Assembly (NCBI RefSeq): GCF_019823105.1
Contig: NZ_CP081960.1
Location: 186,001-250,000 of the forward strand
DNA length: 64,000 nt
DNA from: Halobaculum magnesiiphilum
GTDB taxonomy: Archaea > Halobacteriota > Halobacteria > Halobacteriales > Haloferacaceae
Direction: 5' to 3'
Shown here: one piece after another, positions 3,582 through 20,370 of the stretch
Layout: each line of letters begins with the position of its first letter
How positions within the stretch are numbered: the first letter of the stretch is position 1
Notes under the pieces: generated by a model
Told to the model about the DNA's origin: nothing
Seen by the model: only the letters and a program-made list of their open reading frames with translations
The model's database searches: none
Position numbers and translations under genes: made by a program

Positions 3582-5120
3582 TCAGTCCCAGTTCGGATAG
3601 GCGTCATCAGCTAGATCATCGAGCGGGAACAACGGCCGAGGAATCCGCTCATAGTCGAATCGTGCGGGGTTCACGGCACTGGTTCCTGGCGTATCGATGA
3701 GGATGACCTCGCTCGACATCGTCTCGTAGTCACCGAGGAATGCGATAAGACTCGGGATGCAGATCATATCCAATCGTTCGGGAGGCTGGCCGATGTGACG
3801 CCAGATCTCTGCGTCGAATGCGGAGGCTCGAGTCGGTGCGAGTACCACGGTCACCGAATCGTTGGTCCCACACTGGAACCGGACCGTGGTTCCGATGTCG
3901 TTCTGGACGCCCTTTCCAGAATGTGAGGTCCCCGTGTTCACATAGCGACCGTCTGTAATGGCCTTCACGTAGCCGTCGACGTTCTCGATCGTCTCGCCAT
4001 GGTTATCATCGGTCTTGCCCCCGATGTCGGTTGTGACGCGGTTTCCGACTCCCGCGTTGAGACACTTCTCCACCGCTTCGGGGTCGTGCATAATGGCCCA
4101 ACCGGCTTTTTCGATTCCTTGGTCCAAAATCTCTCTTAGAACTGTCGTCCCATCGGAGGCGCCGCCCCCGCCGGGATTCGAGCCGAAATCGGCCATGACA
4201 ATGGGGCCGTCTTCAGGATCCATCTCCGCTTGGAGTTCTTTGGCTGTGCGGATGGCTTCGGACGGTTTCGGATACTCCTCGACGAACTCCTCACGCTTCG
4301 TCCAGACGAATTCAGCCAGCTCCCGCGAGACATCTCGAGCGGTGTCGGGATCGTCGTCGGTTACTACGGGGATCGTGTACCCCATCTCGGGGATATCCGC
4401 GTGATAAAACCCGGGCAGCACGTTCACTTTCAAAACACCGGGCCGCTGTTCGAGTTGCCGGGCCTTGGTCATCACCTCTGCCATCGGCCCATTCGGGGTG
4501 TAAGCCTTCGGCTGGAACGCGATGACCGGTGGCCGCTCCATATGCATCGACGGATCAATGTCACCTTCGATGGCCCTGAGGAGCAATCGCATCCCGCGTT
4601 CGCCGGTCTTTGCCTTATCGAGATGGGGATAGGTCTCGTAGGCCACCAACGCATCGGCGGCTTCGACCATCCTCCCGGAGACGTTTCCGTGTAGATCGAG
4701 TGTGACGACGACAGGTACCGTTTCACCGACGATGTCCCGGACGTCTTGGATGAGTCGTCCCTCGCCGTCGCTGTCGGATTCGGTGACCATCGCGCCATGG
4801 AGCGGAAGCATGACTCCGTCCAGTTCGTCCACGTTGTCTCTGACTGCGTCGAGAATGAGGTCCGTGTAGAACTCGTACGTATCGTCATCCACGACGCCAC
4901 CGGGGGTGGCGAACGCCGATACTGTGTGGATGAGGTCTATCTCCTCCTCGTCGGCGACGTCGATGACGCCACCGATCGCCGTCTCGGTTCCTCGCATGTT
5001 CCTCGGCACCGCGTCGTACAGGTACTCCTCACGCGCTTGGAAATCCGCTCTGGTGACCGCGTCCGGGACGAACGTGTTCGTCTCGTGGGCGAACGCACCC
5101 ACTACGACTGTGTGGCTCAT
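3582..5120 (-). CDS. M81-family metallohydrolase (MlrC/microcystinase C-like)
   Basis: 512 residues, full length for the family. MlrC-type proteins are predicted zinc hydrolases; the founding member cleaves linearised microcystin. The N-terminus shows VGAFAHETNTF, followed by PLHGAMV and LDLHGN around residues 100-150 and DFGSNPGGGGASDGT near residue 310, all conserved in the family and supplying His/Asp/Glu metal-ligand candidates. The ATG overlaps the stop of the upstream aminotransferase by 4 bp, so the two are translationally coupled. In bacteria M81 genes commonly sit beside dipeptide ABC transporters, as here. The natural substrate is probably an amide or peptide-like compound. Confidence 0.9.
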   Translation of the reverse strand: MSHTVVVGAFAHETNTFVPDAVTRADFQAREEYLYDAVPRNMRGTETAIGGVIDVADEEEIDLIHTVSAFATPGGVVDDDTYEFYTDLILDAVRDNVDELDGVMLPLHGAMVTESDSDGEGRLIQDVRDIVGETVPVVVTLDLHGNVSGRMVEAADALVAYETYPHLDKAKTGERGMRLLLRAIEGDIDPSMHMERPPVIAFQPKAYTPNGPMAEVMTKARQLEQRPGVLKVNVLPGFYHADIPEMGYTIPVVTDDDPDTARDVSRELAEFVWTKREEFVEEYPKPSEAIRTAKELQAEMDPEDGPIVMADFGSNPGGGGASDGTTVLREILDQGIEKAGWAIMHDPEAVEKCLNAGVGNRVTTDIGGKTDDNHGETIENVDGYVKAITDGRYVNTGTSHSGKGVQNDIGTTVRFQCGTNDSVTVVLAPTRASAFDAEIWRHIGQPPERLDMICIPSLIAFLGDYETMSSEVILIDTPGTSAVNPARFDYERIPRPLFPLDDLADDAYPNWD

Positions 5121-6520
5121 ACGTGATCGGCGGCGACTTTAGCCGCCTCTAAGGCCTCGTCGATGTGCTCATCGGTATGGGCGTGCATGAGATTTATACG
5201 TCCCGTTTTCGGTGGAAGGAAGATTCCCTCACCCATCATCGCGGCTGCGAACCGGCTGTAGGCATCGGGGTCGGTGTTCGGCCCGATGTCGCGGTACTCG
5301 CGCCACGCCGCCGGGTCGCCCCCGCCGTCGAGGAAATGAACAGCGAAGAATCCGGCAAATTTCGGTACAAAGACATCGTGCCCTGCGTCTGCAAGTATTT
5401 CCTTGAGACCCGCTGTCAAGCGCTCACCCCTGTCATAGAGTTTCTTGTAGCCTTGTTCGCCCACTTCATGTAGAAGCTCGAGGTTGGCATGGGCCGCTGC
5501 CACGACCAACGGGTTCCCGGAGAACGTCCCCATAAAGGTCGATTTGTCGCTCCCTGACTCCAGAAACCGCATGACCTCTTCGCGGCCACAGAGCGCAGCG
5601 CAGGGATAACCGTTCGCCATCGCTTTGCCGAAGACGGTTAGGTCGGGATCGATATCGAAGTAGCCCTGGGCACCTTGGAGGCCCATTCGAAAGCCAGTCA
5701 CGACCTCATCAAGAATGAATAGCACATCGTGTTCGTTCGTCAGTCGACGGAGTTCATCTAGGTACCCGTTTTCGGGCCACAGCAACCCGCTGTTGCTCAT
5801 CACGGCCTCGGTCATGACTGCCGCGATGTCGTCGCCTTCTCGCTCTAGCTTCTCTTCGAGTAGGTCGATGTCGTTCCAGGGGGCGGATTCGACTGTCTCC
5901 ATCGTCTCTTGTGGAATGCCGGTTGTCTCCGGGATTTTCGTCGGGTTCCGTCTGGTACCGAGATCCTCGGCGCCGGGATGGACATTGACCAAGGCGTAGT
6001 CTGTGTGGCCGTGATACATTCCCTCGAATTTGAGCACCTTTTCTTTGCCTGTGTAGGCTCTGGCCAATCGAATGGCGCTCATGATGGCCTCAGTTCCAGT
6101 GCTGATGAATTTCGCCAGATCGCTAGACGGGACCATCTCGTTGAGAAGGTGGGCCGCCTCGTGTTCCTTTTCGTATGAAGTAGCGAAGTACGGCCCGTTG
6201 TCGATCTGTTGTTTAACAGCCTCGATCTGTCTAGAAGGACTGTGACCGTTGATTATCGCTGAGACACCAGCGTGGAAGTCGATGTAGTTGTTCCCGTCTA
6301 CGTCAGTGAGTTCAGCCCCGCTGCCGCTCTCCATGAAAACCATCGGATAGGGGGCGTACGATCCACTGCCGCGGTAGTTCGACGATGTAGACTCGGGGAT
6401 CTCTTGACTAGCTCGTCGTTGAAGTTCGATCGATCGCGAGAACTTCTCGAGCCTCTTGTTTCCGTACTGGGTGAACTGCTTTTCAGCTACGGAACGCTCT
6501 TCCGACTCGGGCGTACCCAT
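5117..6520 (-). CDS. Class III PLP aminotransferase (glutamate-1-semialdehyde aminomutase-like)
   Basis: 467 residues, fold type I. The PLP Schiff-base Lys is K299 in VFGKAMANGYP, the cofactor Asp sits in DEVVTGFR (271-278), and STGTEA (140-145) binds phosphate. The sequence resembles glutamate-1-semialdehyde 2,1-aminomutases and related beta-amino-acid or D-amino-acid aminotransferases. The catabolic setting (M81 hydrolase downstream with 4-bp overlap, RidA and IclR nearby) argues against heme synthesis. A BRE/TATA-like element shared with the 20330 gene lies 20 bp upstream of the start. The amino donor is unknown. Confidence 0.9.
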   Translation of the reverse strand: MGTPESEERSVAEKQFTQYGNKRLEKFSRSIELQRRASQEIPESTSSNYRGSGSYAPYPMVFMESGSGAELTDVDGNNYIDFHAGVSAIINGHSPSRQIEAVKQQIDNGPYFATSYEKEHEAAHLLNEMVPSSDLAKFISTGTEAIMSAIRLARAYTGKEKVLKFEGMYHGHTDYALVNVHPGAEDLGTRRNPTKIPETTGIPQETMETVESAPWNDIDLLEEKLEREGDDIAAVMTEAVMSNSGLLWPENGYLDELRRLTNEHDVLFILDEVVTGFRMGLQGAQGYFDIDPDLTVFGKAMANGYPCAALCGREEVMRFLESGSDKSTFMGTFSGNPLVVAAAHANLELLHEVGEQGYKKLYDRGERLTAGLKEILADAGHDVFVPKFAGFFAVHFLDGGGDPAAWREYRDIGPNTDPDAYSRFAAAMMGEGIFLPPKTGRINLMHAHTDEHIDEALEAAKVAADHV

Positions 6521-6540
6521 AGCAAGTTGTTACCAAGACT

Positions 6541-6556
6541 CATAATAAACATTCCG
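6541..6556 (-). promoter_or_regulatory. Core promoter (BRE/TATA) of the aminotransferase-M81 operon
   Basis: On the minus strand the sequence reads CGGAATGTTTATTATG, 20 bp before the ATG at 6520. The layout is BRE-like purines followed by a TATA-type TTTATTA, which predicts a very short or absent leader. A nearly identical 16-mer stands at 20355-20370 before another minus-strand gene. Confidence 0.55.
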
Positions 6557-6576
6557 CAGGGTTCCCTCTGATTTCA

Positions 6577-6590
6577 CACATTTATAGATA
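6577..6590 (+). promoter_or_regulatory. TATA-like promoter of the creatininase gene
   Basis: ACATTTATAGATAG lies about 55 bp before ATG 6641 in the divergent gap with the aminotransferase. The TATA core TTTATA would place transcription start near 6608, giving a leader of roughly 30 nt. Confidence 0.45.
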
Positions 6591-6640
6591 GAGTGCAGTC
6601 GGCGCGAACTCTTATGTAATACCTCTCTGAGCAGTGTAGT

Positions 6641-7447
6641 ATGCGACCTGACCTCATGACCACCGCCCCGGGGGACTGGAGTGCCCGCACCGCGCCGGAA
6701 ATCCGCGAGTTGGCACGTACAGATGGTTCGGTGCTGATAGTTCCCATCGGCAGTATCGAACAACACGGTCGGCATCTCCCAGTCGCCACGGATTCGCTGC
6801 TCGTCTCTGCTGTCGCGCAGTTCGGCGTCGAGCGTGTCCGCGAAGAGGTCCCCGTCCTAACGTTGCCTACGTTCTGGAGTGGCTACTCTCCGCATCACCT
6901 CTCGTTTGGTGGCACGGTCTCACTGGAGTTCGAACACATGCAGCACGCCCTTGAGGATGTGGTCGATTCGGCACTGTCGAATGGCTTCGATGCGGTACTA
7001 CTTCTCAACGGGCACGGCGGCAATGCCGCGCTCGTAGACGGAACCGTCAGCACGGTCGGAACTGAGCATCCCTCGGCGGAGGTGCTGGGGCTGACGTATT
7101 TCCAACTCGCTGAATCATTCATCGACGAGATCAGAGAGAGTGACCCGGGCGGGATGGGGCACGGCGGTGAGTTTGAGACTTCGTTGATGATGTACCTCCA
7201 TGAGGACCTAGTCAGAACGGATGAACTGGACGGTACACCAATGGATGAACCCTACGACAAAGCGCTGGATGATATGTTCGCAGGTGGGCCTCTTGGTGTC
7301 TATCGGAGCTTCGAGGAATACTCAGAGACTGGCGCAATTGGTAATCCGGGTTTAGCAACCCCGGAGAAAGGACAGCGAATGTACGAGCGACTCGGGGATG
7401 AGTTGGAGGCAGTCTTGCGGCAGATCCACGACCAGAACACCGAGTGA
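6641..7447 (+). CDS. Creatininase-family amidohydrolase
   Basis: 268 residues, normal for the family, whose members hydrolyse cyclic or formyl amides (creatinine, archaeal FAPy in flavin synthesis, mycofactocin peptide) with a dinuclear metal centre. Visible motifs are PIGSIEQHGRHLP (Glu and His ligands, about 35-47), the ATD metal Asp just after, LLNGHGGN (about 123-130), and MGHGGEFETS (about 170) with ligand His and Glu. An alternative ATG at 6656 would remove five residues. It lies divergently from the aminotransferase-M81 operon. Together with M81 and RidA it suggests degradation of a cyclic amide or N-acylated amine, but the exact substrate cannot be read from sequence. Confidence 0.9.
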   Translation: MRPDLMTTAPGDWSARTAPEIRELARTDGSVLIVPIGSIEQHGRHLPVATDSLLVSAVAQFGVERVREEVPVLTLPTFWSGYSPHHLSFGGTVSLEFEHMQHALEDVVDSALSNGFDAVLLLNGHGGNAALVDGTVSTVGTEHPSAEVLGLTYFQLAESFIDEIRESDPGGMGHGGEFETSLMMYLHEDLVRTDELDGTPMDEPYDKALDDMFAGGPLGVYRSFEEYSETGAIGNPGLATPEKGQRMYERLGDELEAVLRQIHDQNTE

Positions 7448-7518
7448 CCCACCGCGGAACCGAGGCCAGAGGCATTCGCTGCCTACCGGAGGCGATAAAA
7501 TGAATGCCTGAATCAGGG

Positions 7519-9006
7519 CTACTTCGGAGTGCTGTCGATATTGACGGTCACGTTTTTGACCTGACTCATCTCATCGATCGTGTACTGACCGCCGATACGA
7601 CCGACCCCGCTATCGGTCTTCGAGTGGCCGCCGACGGGTGTATGCGTTTCCCAGTGGGCGCTGCCCTCATTGATGTTGATGAGTCCGGCATGGATCTGTT
7701 CGGCGAAGCGGTACATCTTCGACACTGACTCAGTGAAGACGCCACAGGATAGACCCAAATCGATACCGTTGGCGATGTCGATGGCCTCGTCGTAGTCGGA
7801 GAACGTGATGATCGGTGCGATGGGGCCGAACGTTTCGGCCTCATTGGTCACCATGTCGGTGGTTACATCGTCCAAAACCGTCGGTTGGTAGTAGAGATTG
7901 CCCGGGAGCTGAGTCGAGCGCTCTCCGCCATGGAGGAGTGTTGCCCCTTTCGAGACGGCGTCCTCCACGTGCGCGTCCATCTTTTTGGCGACCGATTCGT
8001 TGTTGAGCGGCCCCATGTCGGTTGCCTCTGATAGGGGATGGCCGAGCGTCACTTCCTTGGTGTGTTCTAGTAACTGCTCCCGAAACGGTTCGTGGACGTC
8101 CTCGTGGACGAGGATGCGTTCACTCGCCGTACAGATCTGGCCGGCATTGGTAAAACAGCCTCCGGCAACGGTTTCGGCAGCATGTTCAATATCGGCATCA
8201 TCGAGGACGATAACCGGACCGTTCCCACCGAGTTCCAACAAGGTCGGTTTGGCGCCTGCATTTCGCGCGACTAACTCGCCTGTCTCAGGGCTACCGGTGA
8301 AGCCGACGGCATCGGTGCCGCCGTGCTTCACGACAGCTTCTCCTACTACCGGCCCCTCCCCGGTAACCAGGTTTAACGCGCCGTCGGGGAGGCCAGTTTC
8401 CGCGAGCACTTCGACCAGTTTCACGGAAAAAACGGACGTTGTCGGTGCGGGAACCCAGACAATGGCGTTTCCGACCCCTAAGCCTGGGGCAAGATATTCG
8501 CTCGGAATCGTCAGCGGATAGTTCCACGGCGTGATGACTCCATAGACGCCGTGAGGTTCGCGGAGAGTGAACACGCGGGTATCTGGATCGGCCGCGGGAA
8601 TGGTCTCTCCGCCCGCTCGCTTGACGTTCTCCGCGGCGTCACGATACATCTCGACAGCCAGATCGACCTCGATCTTCGCCTCGGTGAGCGGTTTCCCTTG
8701 GTCGGCCGAGAGCCACATGGCCAGGTCGTCAGCTTCGCTATTGATAGCGTCGGCAAGTTCGTGAACAAGTTCAGCTCGCTCAAACGCTGTCATTGCCGCC
8801 AGATCTTGCTGAGCCTCGGTCGCCGCCACGACAGCGTCGGACACGTCTTCTTCCGTCCCCATCGTAACCGTCCCGATTACCTCTTCAGTAGCTGGGCTGG
8901 TGGCAGGTGAGCTACGGTTTGGCTTACCCCGCCACTCGCCGTCGATGAAGAGACCGTACGCCTCCTGAGGCAAGTCGTAGACTTGGTGATCCGCTGTATC
9001 TCCCAT
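7519..9006 (-). CDS. NAD(P)-dependent aldehyde dehydrogenase with unusual cofactor motif
   Basis: 495 residues, full-length ALDH superfamily. Catalytic residues are in place: oxyanion Asn162 (TPWNYP), Glu258 in LLELGGNGP, nucleophile Cys292 in NAGQICTASERI. The cofactor-binding strand reads AIVWVPAPTTS, so the usual Lys of the KP(A/S)E motif that contacts the NAD(P) ribose is Val185. Family members oxidise aldehydes, often semialdehydes from amine catabolism. It is convergent with the creatininase gene and divergent from the transporter operon, so it is probably its own unit. The likely role is oxidation of an aldehyde made by the aminotransferase or flavin oxidases nearby. Confidence 0.93.
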   Translation of the reverse strand: MGDTADHQVYDLPQEAYGLFIDGEWRGKPNRSSPATSPATEEVIGTVTMGTEEDVSDAVVAATEAQQDLAAMTAFERAELVHELADAINSEADDLAMWLSADQGKPLTEAKIEVDLAVEMYRDAAENVKRAGGETIPAADPDTRVFTLREPHGVYGVITPWNYPLTIPSEYLAPGLGVGNAIVWVPAPTTSVFSVKLVEVLAETGLPDGALNLVTGEGPVVGEAVVKHGGTDAVGFTGSPETGELVARNAGAKPTLLELGGNGPVIVLDDADIEHAAETVAGGCFTNAGQICTASERILVHEDVHEPFREQLLEHTKEVTLGHPLSEATDMGPLNNESVAKKMDAHVEDAVSKGATLLHGGERSTQLPGNLYYQPTVLDDVTTDMVTNEAETFGPIAPIITFSDYDEAIDIANGIDLGLSCGVFTESVSKMYRFAEQIHAGLININEGSAHWETHTPVGGHSKTDSGVGRIGGQYTIDEMSQVKNVTVNIDSTPK

Positions 9007-9086
9007 ATCCTGCCATCTTGGTCATGTGAGATAAACACTGGCACTTAATTGCTCGTCCCACGAGTTTGTATTCGACGCTCCCCGGG

Positions 9087-9110
9087 TCTATTCGGCGATA
9101 TATTTATTAC
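9087..9110 (+). promoter_or_regulatory. TATA-like promoter of the transporter/MR/FAH operon
   Basis: CTATTCGGCGATATATTTATTACC precedes ATG 9134 by about 25-45 bp. It contains a TATATTTAT core with BRE-like bases before it and is the only evident promoter for the tightly packed genes running to 17013. Confidence 0.45.
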
Positions 9111-9133
9111 CCCCCTATGTGGATTGTCATGCC

Positions 9134-10879
9134 ATGCCTAGCCAAAGGCGTAAATTCCTGAAGCAACTGGGAGTCGTTGGTACAGCAGCCGGCCTCGCAG
9201 GCTGTTCCGGCGAGGGTCAGAACACTCCAGCAGGTGGGAGTACCGAGACGGCTACTCCTGTTGAAACGAAGACGCTCGAGCCGGACATCGAGTACGAGGA
9301 GGTTCCGGAATTCAGTTGGCTTACCCTCGCTAGGGGAGATAATCCAGTCTACTACGAGGAGGCTCAACAGGCACAGGGCATGCTGGAAGAATTGGGATTC
9401 CGGTTTTCGGAGGACGTTTTCGAGTCGGGACAGTGGGTTGATACCCTCTTCGCGAAGGAGTACGACCTGGCGAATATCGGCTGGTCGAACACGGTCGAGC
9501 GGCTGTTCCCGTACTACAACCTCTACTTCAGTTTCCACTCCCAGTACGCGGGCGAGGGCGGTGGGAACTTCATGAACTGGACGAGCGACGAGTACGATAC
9601 GGCCGTCGAAAACTTTGCGTCCGAAATGGACGACGAAGCTCGTCAAGAGCTGGCGTTCCGTTGTCAGGAGATCATCGCCCAGAACGCGCCAGTCGCAATG
9701 ATGACCCACCCGTCGTCGTTGATCGCGCACAACACTCAGGAGTACTCTGGATGGGACCCGATGGTCGGCGAGTGGGCGTACTTCAACCCGACGACTCTCA
9801 AGACGGGCGTGGACGAGGCGGGCGACGGGACAGTGATCTTCGCCACGACGTCTCCCCCTGAGCAGTATCCCAACTTCATGTCCCACACGGGACCGGCAGC
9901 TGTGTTCCTCCACAAACTGAACTACGACCCACTGGTGCAGATGGACACGGAGGGTCAGCCGATCGCGGAGGGTGCGGCTCAGGATTGGGAAATCGTTGAT
10001 GACACGACTATCGACGTCCAGCTACGCGAGGGCATGACCTGGCATGATGGTGAGCCAGTAACGCCGGAGGACGTCAAGTTTACGTGGGATTACGCAACGG
10101 AATGGGGTATCCCGTACCTCTCCTCGGACCTTGCACCCTACGAGAGCTCGGAGGTGATGAGTAACAACACGATCCGGTTCAACCTCAAGAATCCGTTCGC
10201 AGGGTTCGTGCAGGTCAGCCTTTACAGGGTACCCATCCTGCCCCAGCACATCTGGGACGGGGTCGCAGAGGAAAATGACCTCGACCATCCAGGACAGTGG
10301 ACTGACCCAGATATGACGGGCAGTGGGCCGTTCATGATGACAGAGTACGACCCCGGCAACCGCATTGTCTTCGAGAAGCACGAAGGCCATTACCACGCTG
10401 AGGAGTACGATATGGACCAAATCGTGTACAACATTTACGGTTCGAACTCGACCGCCGTAGGTGATCTCATCAACGGTGATGCGACATTCTCTCAAGGCCT
10501 CGGAACCATCGACTGGGAACGGACGCAGGAGAGTGGAAATACGGAAGCGATCCAGAACCCAAGTATCCAGGCTAACGGGGTGTTCATGAATACGAATAAC
10601 GAGCCGTTCAATGACGTGATTGTCCGTCGAGCGGTCGCACACGCGATCGACCGTTCGCTCATCGTTCAGACTGTACACCAAGGGAACGCCGAACCCGCAA
10701 AGTCTCCGATCGCACCGGCCAACGAGTTCTATCACAATCCCGACGTACCCGCGTACCAGCATAGCCTGAGCCGGGCCCAAGCCCTTCTTCAGGAGAGTGG
10801 GTTCAGATACGATGGCGATACCTTGCTTTGGCCGACAGATTGGGAGCCGAACACGGAATTCGTCAGCGTCGATAGCTAA
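9134..10879 (+). CDS. Peptide-type ABC substrate-binding lipoprotein with circularly permuted lobe order
   Basis: 581 residues from ATG 9134; an ATG at 9119 would push the signal inward. The N-terminus has a Tat motif (RRKFLKQLG, 5-13) and lipobox LAGC (Cys24), so it is exported folded and lipid-anchored. It belongs to family 5 solute-binding proteins (DppA/OppA). Residues about 58-222 (LARGDNPVYYEEAQQ, then GGGNFMNWTSDEYDTAVEN and EIIAQNAPVAMMTHP) match what is normally the C-terminal lobe. The usual N-terminal start (YDPLVQMDTEGQPIAEGAAQ, then LREGMTWHDGEPVTPEDVKF) begins only near 232. The protein stops at DGDTLLWPTDWEPNTEF, where that lobe normally follows. The binding protein at 18636-20330 has normal order and serves as internal control. 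First gene of the run 9134-17013. Confidence 0.9.
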   Translation: MPSQRRKFLKQLGVVGTAAGLAGCSGEGQNTPAGGSTETATPVETKTLEPDIEYEEVPEFSWLTLARGDNPVYYEEAQQAQGMLEELGFRFSEDVFESGQWVDTLFAKEYDLANIGWSNTVERLFPYYNLYFSFHSQYAGEGGGNFMNWTSDEYDTAVENFASEMDDEARQELAFRCQEIIAQNAPVAMMTHPSSLIAHNTQEYSGWDPMVGEWAYFNPTTLKTGVDEAGDGTVIFATTSPPEQYPNFMSHTGPAAVFLHKLNYDPLVQMDTEGQPIAEGAAQDWEIVDDTTIDVQLREGMTWHDGEPVTPEDVKFTWDYATEWGIPYLSSDLAPYESSEVMSNNTIRFNLKNPFAGFVQVSLYRVPILPQHIWDGVAEENDLDHPGQWTDPDMTGSGPFMMTEYDPGNRIVFEKHEGHYHAEEYDMDQIVYNIYGSNSTAVGDLINGDATFSQGLGTIDWERTQESGNTEAIQNPSIQANGVFMNTNNEPFNDVIVRRAVAHAIDRSLIVQTVHQGNAEPAKSPIAPANEFYHNPDVPAYQHSLSRAQALLQESGFRYDGDTLLWPTDWEPNTEFVSVDS

Positions 10880-10964
10880 CTGATCATGACCCAAGCCCGT
10901 ACATCGGACAGGCCGGACTGCGTGCTCTCAGGGCGGCTCACAGAGTCACGGCGATGGAGGGTCC

Positions 10965-11957
10965 ATGAATAAGAAAGTCACCTTCATCCTTCAGCGACTG
11001 GCGCTGACGCTCGTCTCGCTGTTCGCAGTTGTAACGCTGCTGTTCCTGTTGTTCCGAATCATGCCCGGAGACCCGGCGAGTCAACTCGTGTCCCCGCGGT
11101 TCTCCGATGAACAGCGCCAGGCTATCCTCGCACAGCACGGGCTCACACAGCCGTTGCACATCCAGTACCTGTACTACTTGGAGAACCTCGCACAAGGGAA
11201 CCTCGGTGTCTCGTTCCAGTACGGACGGCCGGTGCTACCGTTCCTTCTGAACAAGACGCTAAACACGCTCTCGATAACGGTACCTGCGCTATTCCTTGCA
11301 TTCACGTTCGGGCCGTTCATCGGCGCGAACTTCGCATGGAACCGGAACGAATCCCTCGATTCGTACGGAACCGGTCTGGTGTTGATCGCGTTCGCTGCGC
11401 CGATATTCTGGACCGGAATGTTGGCGATCATGGTGTTTTCGTTCTGGCTCGGATGGCTCCCGTCCTCGGGGATGCACTCGGCGACCTACACCGAGACGTC
11501 GCTCGTCGGGCGGTTCGCCTCTCTCGAGTTCATCAGGCACGCGATCCTTCCGATCCTGATCTTCGGACTGTGGCGCTTGAGTCAGCCGACGCTGATCATG
11601 CGAAACAACATGATCGACGTTATCGGCGCAGACTTCATCAAGCTGAAACGCGCCGAGGGACTCGACGAGAGGCGAATCATGTACCGTCACGGGGCGCGAA
11701 ACGCACTGCTGCCGTTGGTACACTATATGGCCTTAGCGTTCGGATTCGCCTTCGGCGGCTCCATCATCTTGGAAACGGTGTTCTCCTGGCCAGGGGTCGG
11801 ACGGGCGATGTGGACCGCAGTCCTTGCCAGTGATTACCCCGTGGCCCAAGGGGCGTTCATGATCATCTCGGTTGCTATTATCCTGTTAAACTTCCTGGTC
11901 GACGTGCTCTCTGTGTACGTCGATCCGCGAGTGGCCGACACGGGGGTAGAGACGTGA
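10965..11957 (+). CDS. ABC transporter permease, DppB/OppB type
   Basis: 330 residues with about six membrane helices, the first at 8-32. The N-terminal family signature FRIMPGDPASQLV is present, as is the cytoplasmic EAA-like loop with the ATPase contact (RAEGLDERRIMYRHGARNALLP). It imports peptide- or opine-like solutes with the neighbouring genes. It starts 85 bp after the binding protein; its stop overlaps the GTG start of the next permease by 4 bp. Confidence 0.94.
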   Translation: MNKKVTFILQRLALTLVSLFAVVTLLFLLFRIMPGDPASQLVSPRFSDEQRQAILAQHGLTQPLHIQYLYYLENLAQGNLGVSFQYGRPVLPFLLNKTLNTLSITVPALFLAFTFGPFIGANFAWNRNESLDSYGTGLVLIAFAAPIFWTGMLAIMVFSFWLGWLPSSGMHSATYTETSLVGRFASLEFIRHAILPILIFGLWRLSQPTLIMRNNMIDVIGADFIKLKRAEGLDERRIMYRHGARNALLPLVHYMALAFGFAFGGSIILETVFSWPGVGRAMWTAVLASDYPVAQGAFMIISVAIILLNFLVDVLSVYVDPRVADTGVET

Positions 11958-12868
11958 TCGAAGTCGTCCTCAATCGGTTGTCGACTGGCAGGCGACTCCA
12001 GTACGCACACTACATCGAGCAGATCCGTGATGGGGTGAACGTGTTCACCGAGAACCGGATGGCCACCGTCGCGATGGTGATCGTTCTGGCAACCCTCCTG
12101 ATGGCGGTCTTTGCGCCGTTCATCGCACCGTATGAGCCGACCGAAACCGTCTACAATGACCAGGGACAGCCGGAGACACTCCAACCGCCGACGGTCAACA
12201 ATCCGATGGGTACCAACCATCTGGCACAGGACATTTACAGTCAGTGGATATACGGGAGTCGGGTGTCGCTGCTTGTCGGCTTCCTCTCAGCCATCACAGT
12301 AATCTCGATCGGCACCACCGTCGGGCTCGTCTCCGGCTACTACAAGGGACTCATCGACCTTGTGTTGATGCGGGTAGTCGACATCCTCTATGCCATTCCG
12401 GCCACGCCGCTGGTCTTAGTCGTAGCCATGTTCTGGGGTAGTTCCGTCTGGACCGTCATAATCGCCATGATGTTGGTCCTCTGGCGGACCTCCGCACGGC
12501 TAATACGTTCGGAGACGATGTCGCTGGCAGAGCAACCATTCGTAAAGGCTGCCCGAGCTTCGGGGGCGAGCGACATGCGTATCATGTTCGTCCATATCGC
12601 ACCGATCCTGGTCCCGATCATGCTCATTGAGGGGACTTTCGTTGCGGGATCAGCCATACTGCTGGAGGCTGGCATCTCTTTCCTGGGATTAGGTGCGACC
12701 GAGATGATGAGTTGGGGTGTGATGCTCCAGCTCACCTTCTCGAGTGGCGCGATCTCAGTTGCTTGGTGGTGGGTTCTCCCGCCGGGCCTCAGTATCACCG
12801 CCCTCGTGGTGTCGTTCTTCTACATCTCGCGGGGTATCGAAGACGTAACTAACCCACAAATCGAATAA
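11954..12868 (+). CDS. ABC transporter permease, DppC/OppC type
   Basis: 304 residues, starting at GTG 11954 within a GTGA overlap with the preceding stop, which favours this start. The N-terminal helix near 36-58 is followed by the extracellular loop carrying [20 protein letters not shown], the DppC hallmark (usually GTDxxGRDxxSRxxYGxR). The EAA loop reads [21 protein letters not shown]. It forms the heterodimeric channel with the 10965 gene and precedes the ATPases. Confidence 0.94.
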
Positions 12869-12870
12869 CC

Positions 12871-13896
12871 ATGTCGTTACTCACTATCGAAGACCTCGGC
12901 GTCGCATATGAGGATGAGAGCACCGTCGTTCAGGCGGTTGAATCAGTGGACCTCTCGGTCGAAGCCGGTGAGACGCTCGGAGTCGTCGGAGAGAGCGGAT
13001 GCGGGAAATCGACTATCATCAAGTCTCTCATCCGCATCCTCGACGAGAACGGTTCCGTCGATGAGGGTCAGATCCTGTTCAAAGGTCGGGACCTGACTCA
13101 GTATTCGATCGAGGAACTAAACGAGGAGATCCGCTGGAAGGAGATCTCCTACATCCCGCAGAATGCGATGGCCTCACTGGACCCCGTCTACCGGATCGGA
13201 GACCAGATCGTCGAGGTCATCCGCGCCCACACCGATCGGACCAAACAGGAGGCTCGAGATCGGGCAAAGGACCTGCTGACTGATGTTGGCTTGGACGAGG
13301 AACGACTCTACGACTACCCACACGAACTGTCGGGAGGTCAACGCCAGCGGGCGGTGATCGCTCTCGCGCTTGCGCTCGAACCGTCGGTCATCTTGGCGGA
13401 CGAACCGACGACCGGTCTGGACGTAGTCATTCAAGACGAGATCCTCTCGCTGTTAGATGATATCCAAGCAGAGATCGATTGCGCGATTATCCTCGTCACT
13501 CACGACATGAGCGTCGTCGCGGAGGTAGCAGACACCATCGCGGTGATGTACGGTGGTCGTGTGATGGAATTCGGGCCGACAACGGAGGTGTTCGGCGAGA
13601 GCGCACATCCCTACACCATCGGCCTGAAGAACGCGTTCCCGTCACTGGAACGAGGAGAGAAGTCACGGCTAGTCAGCATTCCGGGAGCACCGCCGAATCT
13701 GAGAGACCCGCCGTCTGGGTGCCGTTTCAAAAGTCGGTGTCCCTTCGCTACTGCGGAATGCGATACCGTTGAACCGCCAACGGTCGAGGTAGGGGAACGT
13801 CATCGAGCCAAATGCCATTACACCGACCAAGCAGCCGATTTCAGAGAGGAAGGGAAGTCTGCAGAGCTCTGGCTTTCCGTTGGGGGTGAGCAGTAA
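12871..13896 (+). CDS. ABC transporter ATP-binding protein, DppD/OppD type
   Basis: 341 residues. Walker [10 protein letters not shown] (about 44-52), the Q-loop at YIPQNAM, signature LSGGQRQR (about 152-159), Walker [13 protein letters not shown] and H-loop VTHD are complete. The C-terminal oligopeptide-transporter extension has Cys residues in [17 protein letters not shown] plus CHY, which in this family can hold an Fe-S cluster. It starts 2 bp after the permease stop and energises the permease pair with the next gene. Confidence 0.95.
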
Positions 13897-13897
13897 T

Positions 13898-14929
13898 ATG
13901 TCGAGACAAACGACCAGCTCCGATTCAAAAACGCACCCACTATTCCGGGTGCAAGGTCTTTCGAAGTGGTTCTCGTCCACGGGCGAAGGGTCGTTCTTAT
14001 CGAACCTCTTCTCCCAAGGGGACCACCTGAAGGCTGTCGACGATGTCGACTTCACCATCGGCAGAGGGGAGATTGTTGGACTGGCCGGCCAGAGCGGCTG
14101 CGGGAAGTCTACACTGGGCGAACTCTTGGTCGGACTCCAGGAGCCAACGGACGGACAGATCACGTTTGACGGTAACGACGTCAATTCCTTCGACTCCGCA
14201 GAAATGAACGCCTTCCGCAGAAAGGCACAGGTCATTTTTCAGGACCCGTATGAAGCGATGAACCCACGGTTCCCGGTCGCCCGTACTGTCTCTGAACCCC
14301 TGAAGATCCACGGCATTGGTGATCGAGAATCCCGAATTGAACGAACCAGGGAGACGCTGGAGGAGGTAGGACTCTCACCCGCCGAGAAGTATCTGGATAA
14401 GCTCCCGGGGGAACTCTCCGGAGGAGAACGCCAGCGGGTGTGTATCGCTCGGGCCATTATTCTGGACCCTGACTTCCTGATCGCCGACGAGCCGGTCTCG
14501 ATGCTGGACGTCAGTGTTCGAACTGGCATCCTCCATCTGTTCGAGCGGCTTCAGGCCGAGCGAGATCTGTCCATTCTTTACATCTCTCACGATCTCTCCA
14601 CAATAAACTACCTTGCCGATCGCACGATGATCATGTACCTCGGGAAGATAGTCGAGTCGGGGGTGACCGACCGGGTCATTCACGAACCGTCTCATCCGTA
14701 CACTGAGGCACTGCTCGAATCAGTCCCCGACCCTGACCCGATGGCGACTCGATCTCGGGGTCAGTTAGAAGGACAGGTTCCGAGTCCAACTGATATCCCA
14801 TCCGGTTGTCGATTCCATCCGCGGTGTGCCTACGCTGACGAGACGTGTTCAGCGGTCGAACCCGACCTTGAAGAGAAAGGTGAGGGTCAACGGGAAGTGG
14901 CCTGTCACTACCCCTTGGAGGCCAACTGA
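13898..14929 (+). CDS. ABC transporter ATP-binding protein, DppF/OppF type
   Basis: 343 residues from ATG 13898; a TTG at 13880 in the same frame overlaps the upstream gene and is less likely. GGGGGTGAG just upstream is a plausible ribosome-binding site. Walker A GQSGCGKST, signature LSGGERQR, Walker B FLIADEPVSMLD and ISHD are intact. The C-terminus again carries the Cys-rich SGCRFHPRCAYADETC tail. It is separated by one base from the preceding stop and by two from the next start. Confidence 0.95.
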   Translation: MSRQTTSSDSKTHPLFRVQGLSKWFSSTGEGSFLSNLFSQGDHLKAVDDVDFTIGRGEIVGLAGQSGCGKSTLGELLVGLQEPTDGQITFDGNDVNSFDSAEMNAFRRKAQVIFQDPYEAMNPRFPVARTVSEPLKIHGIGDRESRIERTRETLEEVGLSPAEKYLDKLPGELSGGERQRVCIARAIILDPDFLIADEPVSMLDVSVRTGILHLFERLQAERDLSILYISHDLSTINYLADRTMIMYLGKIVESGVTDRVIHEPSHPYTEALLESVPDPDPMATRSRGQLEGQVPSPTDIPSGCRFHPRCAYADETCSAVEPDLEEKGEGQREVACHYPLEAN

Positions 14930-14931
14930 CC

Positions 14932-16041
14932 ATGGAAGTCGCCTCCATCGAAGCTATCCCAGTCGAGGTTGGGGTTCGACCTCTCGACGACGGGGGGATC
15001 GCACCTTACCGTGGCAAACACGGAGCGGTCGAGAACGTCGAACGAGTTCTGCTTCGGCTCGAAACCACGACCGGCATCGAAGGTTGGGGTGAGATTCGGC
15101 CGTCACCCTCGGTCGACTCGGCACTCGCAGTACTAAAGTCGGACATAATCCCAGAGGCAGTTGGTCGTCCGCTGTGGGCGATTGAGGCATTCAGGAATGC
15201 GTTCCACTACGAGTATTTGGACGTGAATGGCTACGTGGCAGGTGTTGAGATGGCAATGTGGGACGCACTCGGTCACGAGTTGGGTGTGCCGCTTCACCAA
15301 CTTCTCGGGGGGCGGATCGATGAGGCGGTTCCAATTGCTGCAACGCTAGGTATTCTGAGTCCGGAGCGGTCCCGTGAATTCGCTCGTCGAGCCCTCGAGG
15401 CGGGCTACGATGTGCTGAAAGTGAAGGCTGGGCGCAACTGGAAGCAGGATGTTGACCGAGTCTTGGCGATGGATAACGAAGTCGACGGAGACTTGGAATT
15501 CCGCGTCGACCCTAATCAGGGCTGGACGTTCGAAGACGCCGTCCGCGTGGGAGCATGGCTCGAAGACGCCGGGGTGTATCTCCAGTATTTCGAACAACCC
15601 ATCAGGGTCGATTCGATCGGGACCTACCGAAGTCTTCGGAGTCGCCTGCACACCCCTATCGGAATCAATGAAGACACCTATCATCGGCGAAATCTAACAC
15701 AGCTTCTCCATGCAGATGCCATTGATGTGGCCGTGGTTGACCTCGTGCCTGCCGGTGGGATCCTCGCACTGAAGGCTCAGGCGGCGGTCGCGGATGAGTA
15801 CGGTATCTCACTCGCCCATCATGACGGGTTCGATCTGGGTGTCAAAAAGGCCGCCGTGCTCCACTCTGTCGCCACTACACCGGCGATTAACTTGGCAGTG
15901 GACACGGTCTACCCACACTGGGAAGAGTACCTTCTGAAGGCCCCGTTGACAGTCTCGGAAGGGACGATGGTTGTCCCCGACGGGCCAGGGTTAGGGGTGT
16001 CGGTCGACCCTGCACAACTCGATCGACTTCGTATCGACTGA
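14932..16041 (+). CDS. Mandelate racemase/muconate lactonizing enzyme-family protein
   Basis: 369 residues, enolase superfamily. The N-terminal capping domain (1-120) precedes a TIM barrel. The barrel shows the KVKAG motif (KxK, general base), metal ligands in RVDPNQGW (Asp), YFEQPI (Glu) and GINEDTY (Glu), then VVDLVPAGGI and SLAHHDG late in the barrel. These enzymes abstract a proton alpha to a carboxylate, then racemise, epimerise, dehydrate or cycloisomerise. Lying between transporter ATPases and a fumarylacetoacetase-family enzyme, it probably acts on the imported carboxylate or its product. Epimerase versus acid-sugar dehydratase cannot be settled by eye. Confidence 0.9.
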   Translation: MEVASIEAIPVEVGVRPLDDGGIAPYRGKHGAVENVERVLLRLETTTGIEGWGEIRPSPSVDSALAVLKSDIIPEAVGRPLWAIEAFRNAFHYEYLDVNGYVAGVEMAMWDALGHELGVPLHQLLGGRIDEAVPIAATLGILSPERSREFARRALEAGYDVLKVKAGRNWKQDVDRVLAMDNEVDGDLEFRVDPNQGWTFEDAVRVGAWLEDAGVYLQYFEQPIRVDSIGTYRSLRSRLHTPIGINEDTYHRRNLTQLLHADAIDVAVVDLVPAGGILALKAQAAVADEYGISLAHHDGFDLGVKKAAVLHSVATTPAINLAVDTVYPHWEEYLLKAPLTVSEGTMVVPDGPGLGVSVDPAQLDRLRID

Positions 16042-16125
16042 TCGTTGATATCTATACGATCGAGTGGACCGATCGCTGCAGAGCTACCCAAACGGCTAAT
16101 ACCCAGCGGTCCACTTATCTGGGCG

Positions 16126-17013
16126 ATGCGACTCGTCAGATTCTCTCACGGTGAGGAACAGCCACGGCTGGGTGCACTTGAACCGAGCACGGAAGTGGTC
16201 GTTGACCTCCAAGCGGTCGGAACCGACCTCGACGTCGGTATCCCCTCCAGTATGCGGACACTCCTAGCGAGGCCCCGGTGGCAAGAGACGGTCAAACTAC
16301 TCCGAGACTACGCCATAGACGTAGAAACGGGCCTCCACGAACGGCAGGAAGTCGAGATCCTTTCCCCTCTCGTTGAACCCCAGAAGATCATCTGTGTTGG
16401 GCTCAACTACATCGAACATATCGAGGAATCCGAGGAAGAACGACCCGAGAACCCAGTATTGTTCTCGAAATATGCCTCCGCATTGGTTGGTCCCGGCCAA
16501 GCAATCAAGTGGGACCCAGAATTAACATCGGAAGTGGATTACGAAGTTGAACTTGCCGCTGTCGTCGGAAAACGAGCCCGGCGGATCGACAGATCCCGGG
16601 CGAGAGACCACATTGCCGGCTACACCGTCGCGAATGACGTCTCAGCACGTGATCTACAGTTCGCGGACGAGCAGTGGGTCCGCGGGAAAACGCTAGATAC
16701 GTTTTGTCCGCTTGGTCCTGCGATCGTCACGGAAGACGAACTTGAGGATCCTGAGGACCTGCGACTGTGGGCAGAGGTAAATGGGGAACGGCTTCAGGAC
16801 TCGACGACGGAGAACCTTATTTTCGGGATTGATGAACTCGTCTCATTCTGCAGTCGGGCCTTCACTCTCGAACCGGGAGACGTAATTCTCACAGGGACTC
16901 CGACGGGTGTCGGTGTGTTCAGAGATCCTCCCGTCCTGCTGGACGATGGGGATCAGGTCACGGTTGGGATCGAAGAAATCGGGGAGCTTACCAACATGTG
17001 CTGTCATCAGTAA
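16126..17013 (+). CDS. Fumarylacetoacetate hydrolase-family protein
   Basis: 295 residues from ATG 16126 (MRLVRFSHGEE); an upstream in-frame TTG at 16045 adds residues unlike the family. Motifs include KIICVGLNYIEHIEE, SEVDYEVELAAVVGK with metal-binding Glu, GYTVANDVSARDLQ and LTGTPTGVG. Family members hydrolyse C-C bonds of acylpyruvates, decarboxylate oxaloacetate, or act in homoprotocatechuate and sugar-acid pathways. It is the last gene of the operon-like run, about 85 bp after the preceding stop, and would complete breakdown of the compound processed by the preceding enzyme. Confidence 0.92.
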   Translation: MRLVRFSHGEEQPRLGALEPSTEVVVDLQAVGTDLDVGIPSSMRTLLARPRWQETVKLLRDYAIDVETGLHERQEVEILSPLVEPQKIICVGLNYIEHIEESEEERPENPVLFSKYASALVGPGQAIKWDPELTSEVDYEVELAAVVGKRARRIDRSRARDHIAGYTVANDVSARDLQFADEQWVRGKTLDTFCPLGPAIVTEDELEDPEDLRLWAEVNGERLQDSTTENLIFGIDELVSFCSRAFTLEPGDVILTGTPTGVGVFRDPPVLLDDGDQVTVGIEEIGELTNMCCHQ

Positions 17014-18635: not shown

Positions 18636-20330
18636 TTACTTCGTCGGAGCATTCGCTCCAAGGGCATATTCATCGGGGTAAATCTGGTATGCAAGCGGAT
18701 TAAGTTCGTACTTTTCTACGTAGTTCTTCGAAGCTCCGATCGTGTCGATATAGAACGATATCGCGTACGGGCCTTCGTCTCGAACCAGCGTCTGGGCCTC
18801 GTTCATGTACTGTTGTTTTTGCTCTCGGTCGGTCTCTGCGATCGCATTGTCGACGAGATCATCGAACTCTTGGTTCGTCCAATCGGATTCGCTGTTCCAG
18901 TTGCCTTCGGAGTGCAGCATCAGCTTCATGAAGTTCGCCCCGCTGATGCGCATTCCGTATGCACCGACGTAGAACGGGGATTTTCTCCACACGGTAGCAC
19001 TCCAGGTGTCGTATCCCATCGTTTCGAGTTCGAACTCGATGCCGACTTCCTCGAGCTGCTCCTGCATCAACACAGCCGTACCCCGCATGTGCGGGATATT
19101 ACTGGCTGTCTGCAGCGTCAGGTCGAACTCCTCCGTCAGGTTGATGCCATCGGGATATCCTGCTTCGGCGAGAAGTTCTCTTGCCTTCTCGAGGTCTTGC
19201 TCAGGTGGATCGATATCGGCATGAAAGTCGTACGCGGGGGAGAGAAGATTATCCTGTCCCACCACTCCGAGTCCATCTTGGACCGCGCTTAGAATTGCTT
19301 CACGGTCAATAGCGTGTTTTACGGCTTTTCTCACACGAGGGTCGGACCACGGTTCAACGCTCGTGTTCATGACGAAGTTCGCGATCTCTCCCCCTGGCGT
19401 CCTATGGGCGTTTGCGTCGCTGAGGTTCTGGAGCTGCCCCCATTGACCGTACCCAGGTTGCCAGATGATGTCGACGTCTTCTCCTCGGAGCGCGTTGACC
19501 TGATTACTTTTCTCAGGGATCGTTATTTGACTGATTCTATCGACGTACGGGAGTGGTTCCCCGTCGTCACCGGTCCTGTAATAGTCGTCGTACGCGACCC
19601 CGACAAGTTCGTCACCGGGGGCGAACTCCTCCAACGTGAAGGCACCTGACCCATGCTCCTCCGTTCCGAGTGCCTGCCGCTTTTCGGGATCAGTGACGAT
19701 GTCCTCTGGAACGATCGACCCCCATCCCTTGGAAACGAGTTTGGCGAAGTCAGAGTTACTCCCGCCGAGAATGAACCTGACAGTGGTTTCATCGACGGCT
19801 TCGACCTGTTGAATGTCGCCCATCGTTCCCATTCCTGGGCTCCCAACATCCTCATCGTACACCGTTTCGAACGTCGCTTTCACATCCGAAGCGGTGACCT
19901 TGCTCCCGTCGTGGAACGTTGCATCCCGCAACGAGAACGTCCACTCATCGGACGCGTCATTCGATGACCAGTCTGCGGCCAAATCGCCGTATGGTTCGAG
20001 ATCGGGGCTGACACGGGTCAGGGTGGAATAAAACAGCTTCACTCCCCAACGTTGTGGGAACTTCGAGGACATCATTACCGGGTTTATCGTCGAAGTTTCC
20101 GGCGTGATGGCTATCCTGAGATGGCCTCCACGCAGATTGTTAGAACTCGATCCGGACTCTGACCCAGAGGCAGATCCCTCTCCCGAACCTGAGTCATCGC
20201 CCGACGAGCCTCCTTGGTTGGAGTCACCCGTGCAACCGGCGAGCCCAGTCACAGCACCTACACCGATCAGTCCCAAATAGTGACGCCGTTCAAGGGTACT
20301 ACCTGGACGGTTTGCTACTTCTTGGCGCAT
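18636..20330 (-). CDS. Peptide-type ABC substrate-binding lipoprotein (normal lobe order)
   Basis: 564 residues from ATG 20330 (MRQEVANRPGS); an in-frame ATG at 20366 adds 12 residues before the Tat signal. ERRHYLGLIG followed by LAGC (lipobox) marks Tat export and lipid anchoring; a Ser/Gly/Asp linker follows. The family 5 binding-protein order is standard: GGHLRIAITPETSTINPVM, then LRDATFHDGSKVTASDVKA, then HAIDREAIL, then the second lobe ending near LNPLAYQIYPDEY. Its likely partners are the fused ATPase (23784-25856) and permeases (26168-28029), although it is 3.5 kb away and separately transcribed. The promoter motif at 20355-20370 is shared with the aminotransferase operon. Confidence 0.92.
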   Translation of the reverse strand: MRQEVANRPGSTLERRHYLGLIGVGAVTGLAGCTGDSNQGGSSGDDSGSGEGSASGSESGSSSNNLRGGHLRIAITPETSTINPVMMSSKFPQRWGVKLFYSTLTRVSPDLEPYGDLAADWSSNDASDEWTFSLRDATFHDGSKVTASDVKATFETVYDEDVGSPGMGTMGDIQQVEAVDETTVRFILGGSNSDFAKLVSKGWGSIVPEDIVTDPEKRQALGTEEHGSGAFTLEEFAPGDELVGVAYDDYYRTGDDGEPLPYVDRISQITIPEKSNQVNALRGEDVDIIWQPGYGQWGQLQNLSDANAHRTPGGEIANFVMNTSVEPWSDPRVRKAVKHAIDREAILSAVQDGLGVVGQDNLLSPAYDFHADIDPPEQDLEKARELLAEAGYPDGINLTEEFDLTLQTASNIPHMRGTAVLMQEQLEEVGIEFELETMGYDTWSATVWRKSPFYVGAYGMRISGANFMKLMLHSEGNWNSESDWTNQEFDDLVDNAIAETDREQKQQYMNEAQTLVRDEGPYAISFYIDTIGASKNYVEKYELNPLAYQIYPDEYALGANAPTK

Positions 20331-20354
20331 TGCAAGCCAACGACTAACACACAC

Positions 20355-20370
20355 CATAATAAACATTTCG
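20355..20370 (-). promoter_or_regulatory. Core promoter of the binding-protein gene
   Basis: The minus strand reads CGAAATGTTTATTATG, 24 bp before ATG 20330. It differs at one base from the element at 6541-6556. BRE-like CGAAA followed by TTTATTA predicts a near-leaderless transcript. Confidence 0.55.

Follow-up and report, generated by a model that had tools for sequence, protein, structure and literature searches.

Few transport proteins are as abundant as the family 5 solute-binding proteins (SBPs), and the open reading frame (ORF) at positions 9134 to 10879 of the window (the whole 64,000-nucleotide stretch of Halobaculum magnesiiphilum DNA analyzed here) raises the question of whether such a protein can occur in nature with the parts of its chain in swapped order. 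A sequence-only reading had claimed that the segment that normally ends these proteins stands first in this one, and that the result is a circularly permuted, complete fold. If so, it has to be asked how widely the arrangement is spread, how many times it arose, and what it means for transport. The features concerned are:

9134 to 10879, plus strand: permuted family 5 SBP gene, 581 amino acids plus stop (ORF, PF00496, and HMM)
9134 to 9205, plus strand: Tat-like signal and lipobox LAGC with Cys24 (sequence motif)
9206 to 9292, plus strand: disordered linker rich in Thr, Gly, and Glu, residues 25-53 (low pLDDT)
9293 to 9787, plus strand: displaced segment, residues ~54-218, corresponding to the C-terminal third of canonical proteins and to DppA precursor ~379-524 (HMM, Smith-Waterman, VIA)
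9788 to 9817, plus strand: seam, residues 219-228, a short linker from the old C-terminus to the old N-terminus (HMM, pLDDT dip)
9818 to 10840, plus strand: residues 229-569, equivalent to the N-terminal two thirds of canonical proteins and to DppA precursor ~30-377 (PF00496, HMM, Smith-Waterman, VIA)
10841 to 10876, plus strand: C-terminal tail beyond the permutation cut, residues 570-581, missing from most relatives
10965 to 11957, plus strand: DppB-like permease (Pfam BPD_transp_1), conserved beside permuted SBPs
11954 to 12868, plus strand: DppC-like permease
12871 to 13896, plus strand: DppD-like ATPase (ABC_tran and oligo_HPY)
13880 to 14929, plus strand: DppF-like ATPase (ABC_tran and oligo_HPY)
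18636 to 20366, minus strand: second SBP of the family, in canonical order, serving as internal control (ORF, PF00496, and HMM)

The window protein, which carries an RR motif of the Tat type and the lipobox LAGC by sequence motif, belongs to family 5 by its PF00496 score (228.8 bits against a gathering cut-off of 32.4) and lacks the canonical chain order, in which the start of the N-lobe comes first. On a reference HMM of 544 positions built from ten canonical-order SBPs, residues 65-218 match positions 383-540 (E 1.7e-18) and residues 229-558 match positions 50-369 (E 2.8e-70). PF00496 itself is split in the same manner, with profile positions 5-297 at residues 280-569 and positions 287-362 found upstream in the same ORF, at window 9296-9532. 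Smith-Waterman alignment to E. coli DppA, judged against shuffled segments, places segment 55-224 on DppA 379-524 (z 11.6) and segment 225-581 on DppA 30-377 (z 45.6), and the two halves also align to residues 416-536 and 110-404 of the control SBP encoded within the window. The order swap is far beyond chance, and because the chain order is rotated the protein is a permuted variant of family 5 and no ordinary member. None of the curated SBP equivalogs in NCBIfam (e.g., DppA, NikA, OppA) scores above cut-off (best 108.7 bits, cut-off 600). Some details of the sequence-only reading shift with these results: the displaced segment, put at residues ~58-222, is indeed equivalent to the C-terminal third and has its structured start nearer residue 54; the C-terminus, said to stop exactly at the cut, lies near it, most relatives ending 'DGRLxYP' and the last ~12 residues of the window protein forming a tail; and the second SBP, given as 18636-20330, has the normal order and aligns to the halves in swapped positions, its ORF being 18636-20366 on the minus strand. 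In the genome of the window, 3 of the 11 PF00496 genes are permuted.

The same order and the same cut are found in about 70 further proteins, here termed clade A, from haloarchaea, Chloroflexota, Bacillota, and Alphaproteobacteria. A scan of reference genomes yielded colinear homologues in Halobellus, Natrarchaeobius, a Clostridia bacterium, several Chloroflexi, and Rhodophyticola. Sorted by the order of their HMM hits, the collected sequences fall into 83 permuted and 17 canonical entries, and removal of re-fetched copies left about 70 distinct permuted loci besides the window, four of which turned out to belong to a second group, clade B (see below). A search of haloarchaea with a profile spanning the seam (E<=1e-25) returned matches in 132 of 292 Halobacteria genomes (~45% of the species sampled); the matches listed all span the seam, and some of the weaker ones are clade B. 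Permuted members are rare in the bacterial samples, amounting, with the starting genome counted, to 1/151 in the phylum of the Chloroflexi genome, 1/249 in that of Rhodophyticola, and 6/149 in that of the Clostridia genome. Intact permuted genes occur on complete plasmid records of Neorhizobium galegae HAMBI 540, Nitratireductor, and Halalkalicoccus jeotgali, where annotated ones are labelled plain 'ABC transporter substrate-binding protein'. Clade A is monophyletic (SH-aLRT support 91-94%), and its permutation is old and widely spread. An assembly or gene-model artefact that joined pieces of two genes or rearranged a contig, a reading that drew on a single ORF first met in one window, is refuted by independent genomes and has a negligible probability, since order and cut are identical in dozens of genomes from several phyla and in the complete plasmid records, and another genus has a 76% identical orthologue of the window protein, around which the gene cluster is conserved as a whole.

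Individual members of the set show further variation. In Neorhizobium galegae VafX2 (L187 4697-6350) the permuted gene is broken into two ORFs, one annotated as a hypothetical protein and the other as an SBP; the HAMBI 540 copy is the intact one. In a tailed subgroup (L002, L037-L045, L051, L054-L058, L060-L064) the C-terminus continues into a conserved tail resembling DAWxAFxERVExGHAxRxELDQxDFS, and HMM positions point to a longer N-terminal extension ahead of the displaced segment. In G000:C1:2109034-2110128 (L008/L113) one TGA falls inside the PF00496 match, yet the frame of 712 aa is open by ORF scan, and the TGA is probably an edge effect of the match.

The complete single fold that had been claimed is what AlphaFold2 predicts. 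Given an alignment of 27 permuted proteins, it returns a single, confident fold for the window protein (pLDDT 86, pTM 0.85). Most of the displaced segment exceeds pLDDT 90, residues 1-46 stay below 50, and the seam residues 219-228 drop to 65-82. VIA-align places residues 226-572 of the full model on AppA 17-361 (Z 24.6) and covers just this part because the aligner is sequential; the top Foldseek TM-scores stay below 0.5 for the same reason, a sequential aligner meeting a permutant. Modelled alone, the displaced segment reaches a pLDDT of 62, a poor prediction attributed to its being part of the fold and not an independent domain. Even so, its best VIA matches are to family 5 SBPs, in the next stretch of their chain (NikZ 326-454, 5u4o 356-486, and M. 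tuberculosis DppA 377-506), with Z 8.8-8.9 for 5u4o and NikZ from a low-confidence query model, and with high rmsd in the long alignments (about 14 A over two subparts). Both parts of the window protein match successive stretches of canonical structures in these sequential alignments, the displaced part from its low-confidence model, and the displaced segment is best read, on the predicted structure, as belonging to the one fold. No solved structure with swapped order was found among the best 60 of 112 PDB sequence matches, nor among the top VIA matches, none of which aligns ahead of residue ~223. The circular permutation proposed from the letters is borne out by the profile order, the single-fold model, the two-part structural matches, and the conserved order in dozens of genomes. 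A different account would make the N-terminal segment an unrelated domain, or a C-lobe fragment of another SBP gene fused to a truncated SBP, and it finds some room in clade A, where the displaced part resembles canonical C-lobes only weakly (blastp E ~1e-10) and origin from the same gene is not directly demonstrable. This account is highly improbable, since the displaced part matches exactly what the C-terminus is missing, the model is confident only when the segment is taken together with the rest of the protein, and in clade B both halves trace to a single canonical relative, on which they abut and to which they show equal identity.

The clearest case of the latter is the permuted protein L168, whose parts match residues 75-384 and 386-567 of the canonical L173 at 55.3% and 54.7% identity; the halves being equal in identity and abutting on L173, both come from one gene. 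Clade B is present in 24 of 292 haloarchaeal genomes, and its closest canonical-order relatives (L172-L175) are 42-55% identical to it. In clade A, measured on a 491-position canonical HMM, the median start of the displaced segment is 336 and the median end of the main part is 332, which corresponds to DppA precursor residues ~371-375. The clade A chain ends after 'AGYxWDxDGRLxYP' and, past the signal and linker, begins with the next strand, 'VPxIxxxS'. In clade B the displaced start lies at about 320-332 in nearly all members and the end at 305-311, just ahead of the helix 'DPEKAxxLL' (DppA precursor ~354/355), which is ~20 residues earlier than the clade A cut.

Cuts just about 20 residues apart might be expected from one ancestral permutation whose overlapping ends were trimmed differently, and a first test of clades A and B as a single clade, made without the closest canonical relatives of clade B, did not reject it (p 0.138). 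Once these relatives are included the single clade is rejected (delta lnL 213, AU p 2.6e-15), and the same relatives share orthologous permeases with clade B; a single origin is thus very unlikely. Circular permutation appears to have arisen at least twice in family 5, with two independent events as the best reading. A quick tree of clade B and its canonical relatives is compatible with either gain or loss of the permutation inside the group. A duplicated intermediate was sought among unusually long ORFs, none of which is a tandem duplicate: L031 (907 aa) and L142 (869 aa) each consist of one canonical-order SBP with an extension, and L085 (1017 aa) is one permuted SBP behind a likely start-codon overextension.

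The setting of these genes is that of a dipeptide-type importer. DppBCDF-type permeases and oligo_HPY ATPases, as in the family at large, are encoded with the window SBP. DppBCDF genes lie directly downstream at most clade A loci with usable flanks (one subgroup is without them), at 7/7 clade B loci checked, and at 4/4 loci of the canonical relatives of clade B. The DppB proteins of clade B are 57-69% identical to those of its canonical relatives and at most 39% identical to those of clade A. Since permuted and canonical SBPs stand beside orthologous importers, it is argued that docking and delivery survive the permutation, and permuted and canonical SBPs appear to work with one kind of transporter. 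Near L086, L087, L090, L091, L095, L096, L098, and L101, DppBC-like permeases gave no tblastn match within flanks of ~4-5 kb; the permease-less clade A SBPs are possibly orphan receptors. L008 565-2700 belongs with the same subgroup, and L090 carries two permuted SBPs close together.

Catabolic genes surround the window transporter and include an M81 peptidase, a class III aminotransferase, a creatininase-like amidohydrolase, an aldehyde dehydrogenase, a muconate/mandelate-type enolase, and an FAA hydrolase. Because of these neighbours, an amide- or lactam-like compound is the suggested substrate for uptake and breakdown. The cluster of M81 peptidase, class III aminotransferase, creatininase, ALDH, and MLE-type enolase is conserved in the window (3582-17013), L185, L099, and L188, and the gene surroundings in L099 and Halalkalicoccus are reduced versions of it.

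In the proposed explanation, the old termini of a cluster C (DppA/OppA-like) SBP would have been fused through the short linker and new termini opened, in clade A, at the start of the strand after the '(A)GY-dG' motif in lobe 2. Permutations usually arise by tandem duplication and subsequent trimming, a plausible origin here as well. The permuted protein would, on the predicted structure, fold as a normal two-lobe Venus flytrap and, after binding its ligand, would hand it to the adjacent DppBCDF importer, and clade B would represent a second permutation, one that arose among haloarchaeal relatives of canonical order supplying an orthologous permease. It is very probable that this reading holds as a whole, i.e., that the window protein is a complete natural circular permutant of family 5 with a normal fold and DppBCDF delivery, and that family 5 was permuted a second time in clade B.

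Both old termini of the DppA fold lie in lobe 1, and the cuts of clades A and B presumably both fall in lobe 2; for this reason the N-terminal lipid anchor would move between the lobes and hang from lobe 2 instead of lobe 1. A lipobox is recognized by motif in 40/54 haloarchaeal members of the clade A-centred set (four clade B proteins included) and in 19/24 of the clade B set. It is absent by motif from 12/18 bacterial permuted members, at least two of which (L081, L084) are perhaps motif misses; plain Sec signals occur in the permuted SBPs of Rhodophyticola, several Chloroflexi, and Neorhizobium. Selection for a shift of the anchor to lobe 2, along the lines suggested in the accessible text on TpMglB-2 (PMC4990184), would fit the lipobox motifs of most haloarchaeal members of both clades. 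It is nonetheless an unlikely explanation: because several bacterial members have plain Sec signals, anchoring alone does not account for the order, and the bacterial members without a lipobox by motif (some possibly missed) are joined by canonical lipoproteins that work with the same kind of permease. More generally, it is a tentative proposal, credible and still short of probable, that circular permutation is a recurrent and selected change in family 5, in which the same lobe-2 region was opened independently on two or more occasions and permuted forms took the place of canonical ones at orthologous transporters. If the permutation is indeed selected, then chain order (through the anchoring point, the order of secretion and folding, or hinge dynamics) would be a selected trait and not neutral drift.

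The rearrangement is invisible in the automatic annotation of family 5 SBPs. Clade B amounts to a natural experiment, with canonical and permuted orthologues at 42-55% identity beside orthologous permeases, which makes the effect of permutation on folding, export, anchoring, and transport directly testable, as well as the natural origin of permutations.

Among known systems, the nearest is E. coli DppA, a cluster C protein of SBP_bac_5 (PF00496), which resembles the window protein in both sequence halves, the GTGPF-like motif, the predicted fold of the main part, and the DppBCDF operon, and differs in that the parts of the window protein are rotated and its termini would lie in lobe 2. The matches of the window protein, in sequence and in fold, are to cluster C SBPs. 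Searches of open-licence literature, PDB, Pfam, and NCBIfam brought up no permuted family 5 SBP; the sequence-only reading had known of no described permuted member, and within the available portions of that literature a permuted SBP is known only from a different cluster. This is TpMglB-2 (Tp0684) of Treponema pallidum, a naturally permuted SBP of an ABC importer assigned to 'cluster Bc', for which the accessible text reports a crystal structure, glucose binding, and closure, and whose authors proposed anchoring as a reason for the permutation (PMC4990184). Unlike the family 5 permutants, it is described there as a type I/cluster B sugar-binding protein with another cut site, and its permuted part is poorly conserved in sequence and contains a large insertion (PMC4990184). 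The same portion of the description contains no closely related canonical-order orthologue pair, unlike clade B (PMC4990184). In the permuted halves of ribose-binding protein, as far as the accessible text goes, a periplasmic-binding fold is likewise permuted, but in engineered constructs (PMC9815098). Natural permutation of an SBP is therefore already known in cluster B, and what appears to be new here is its occurrence in family 5, with two origins and a natural matched pair.
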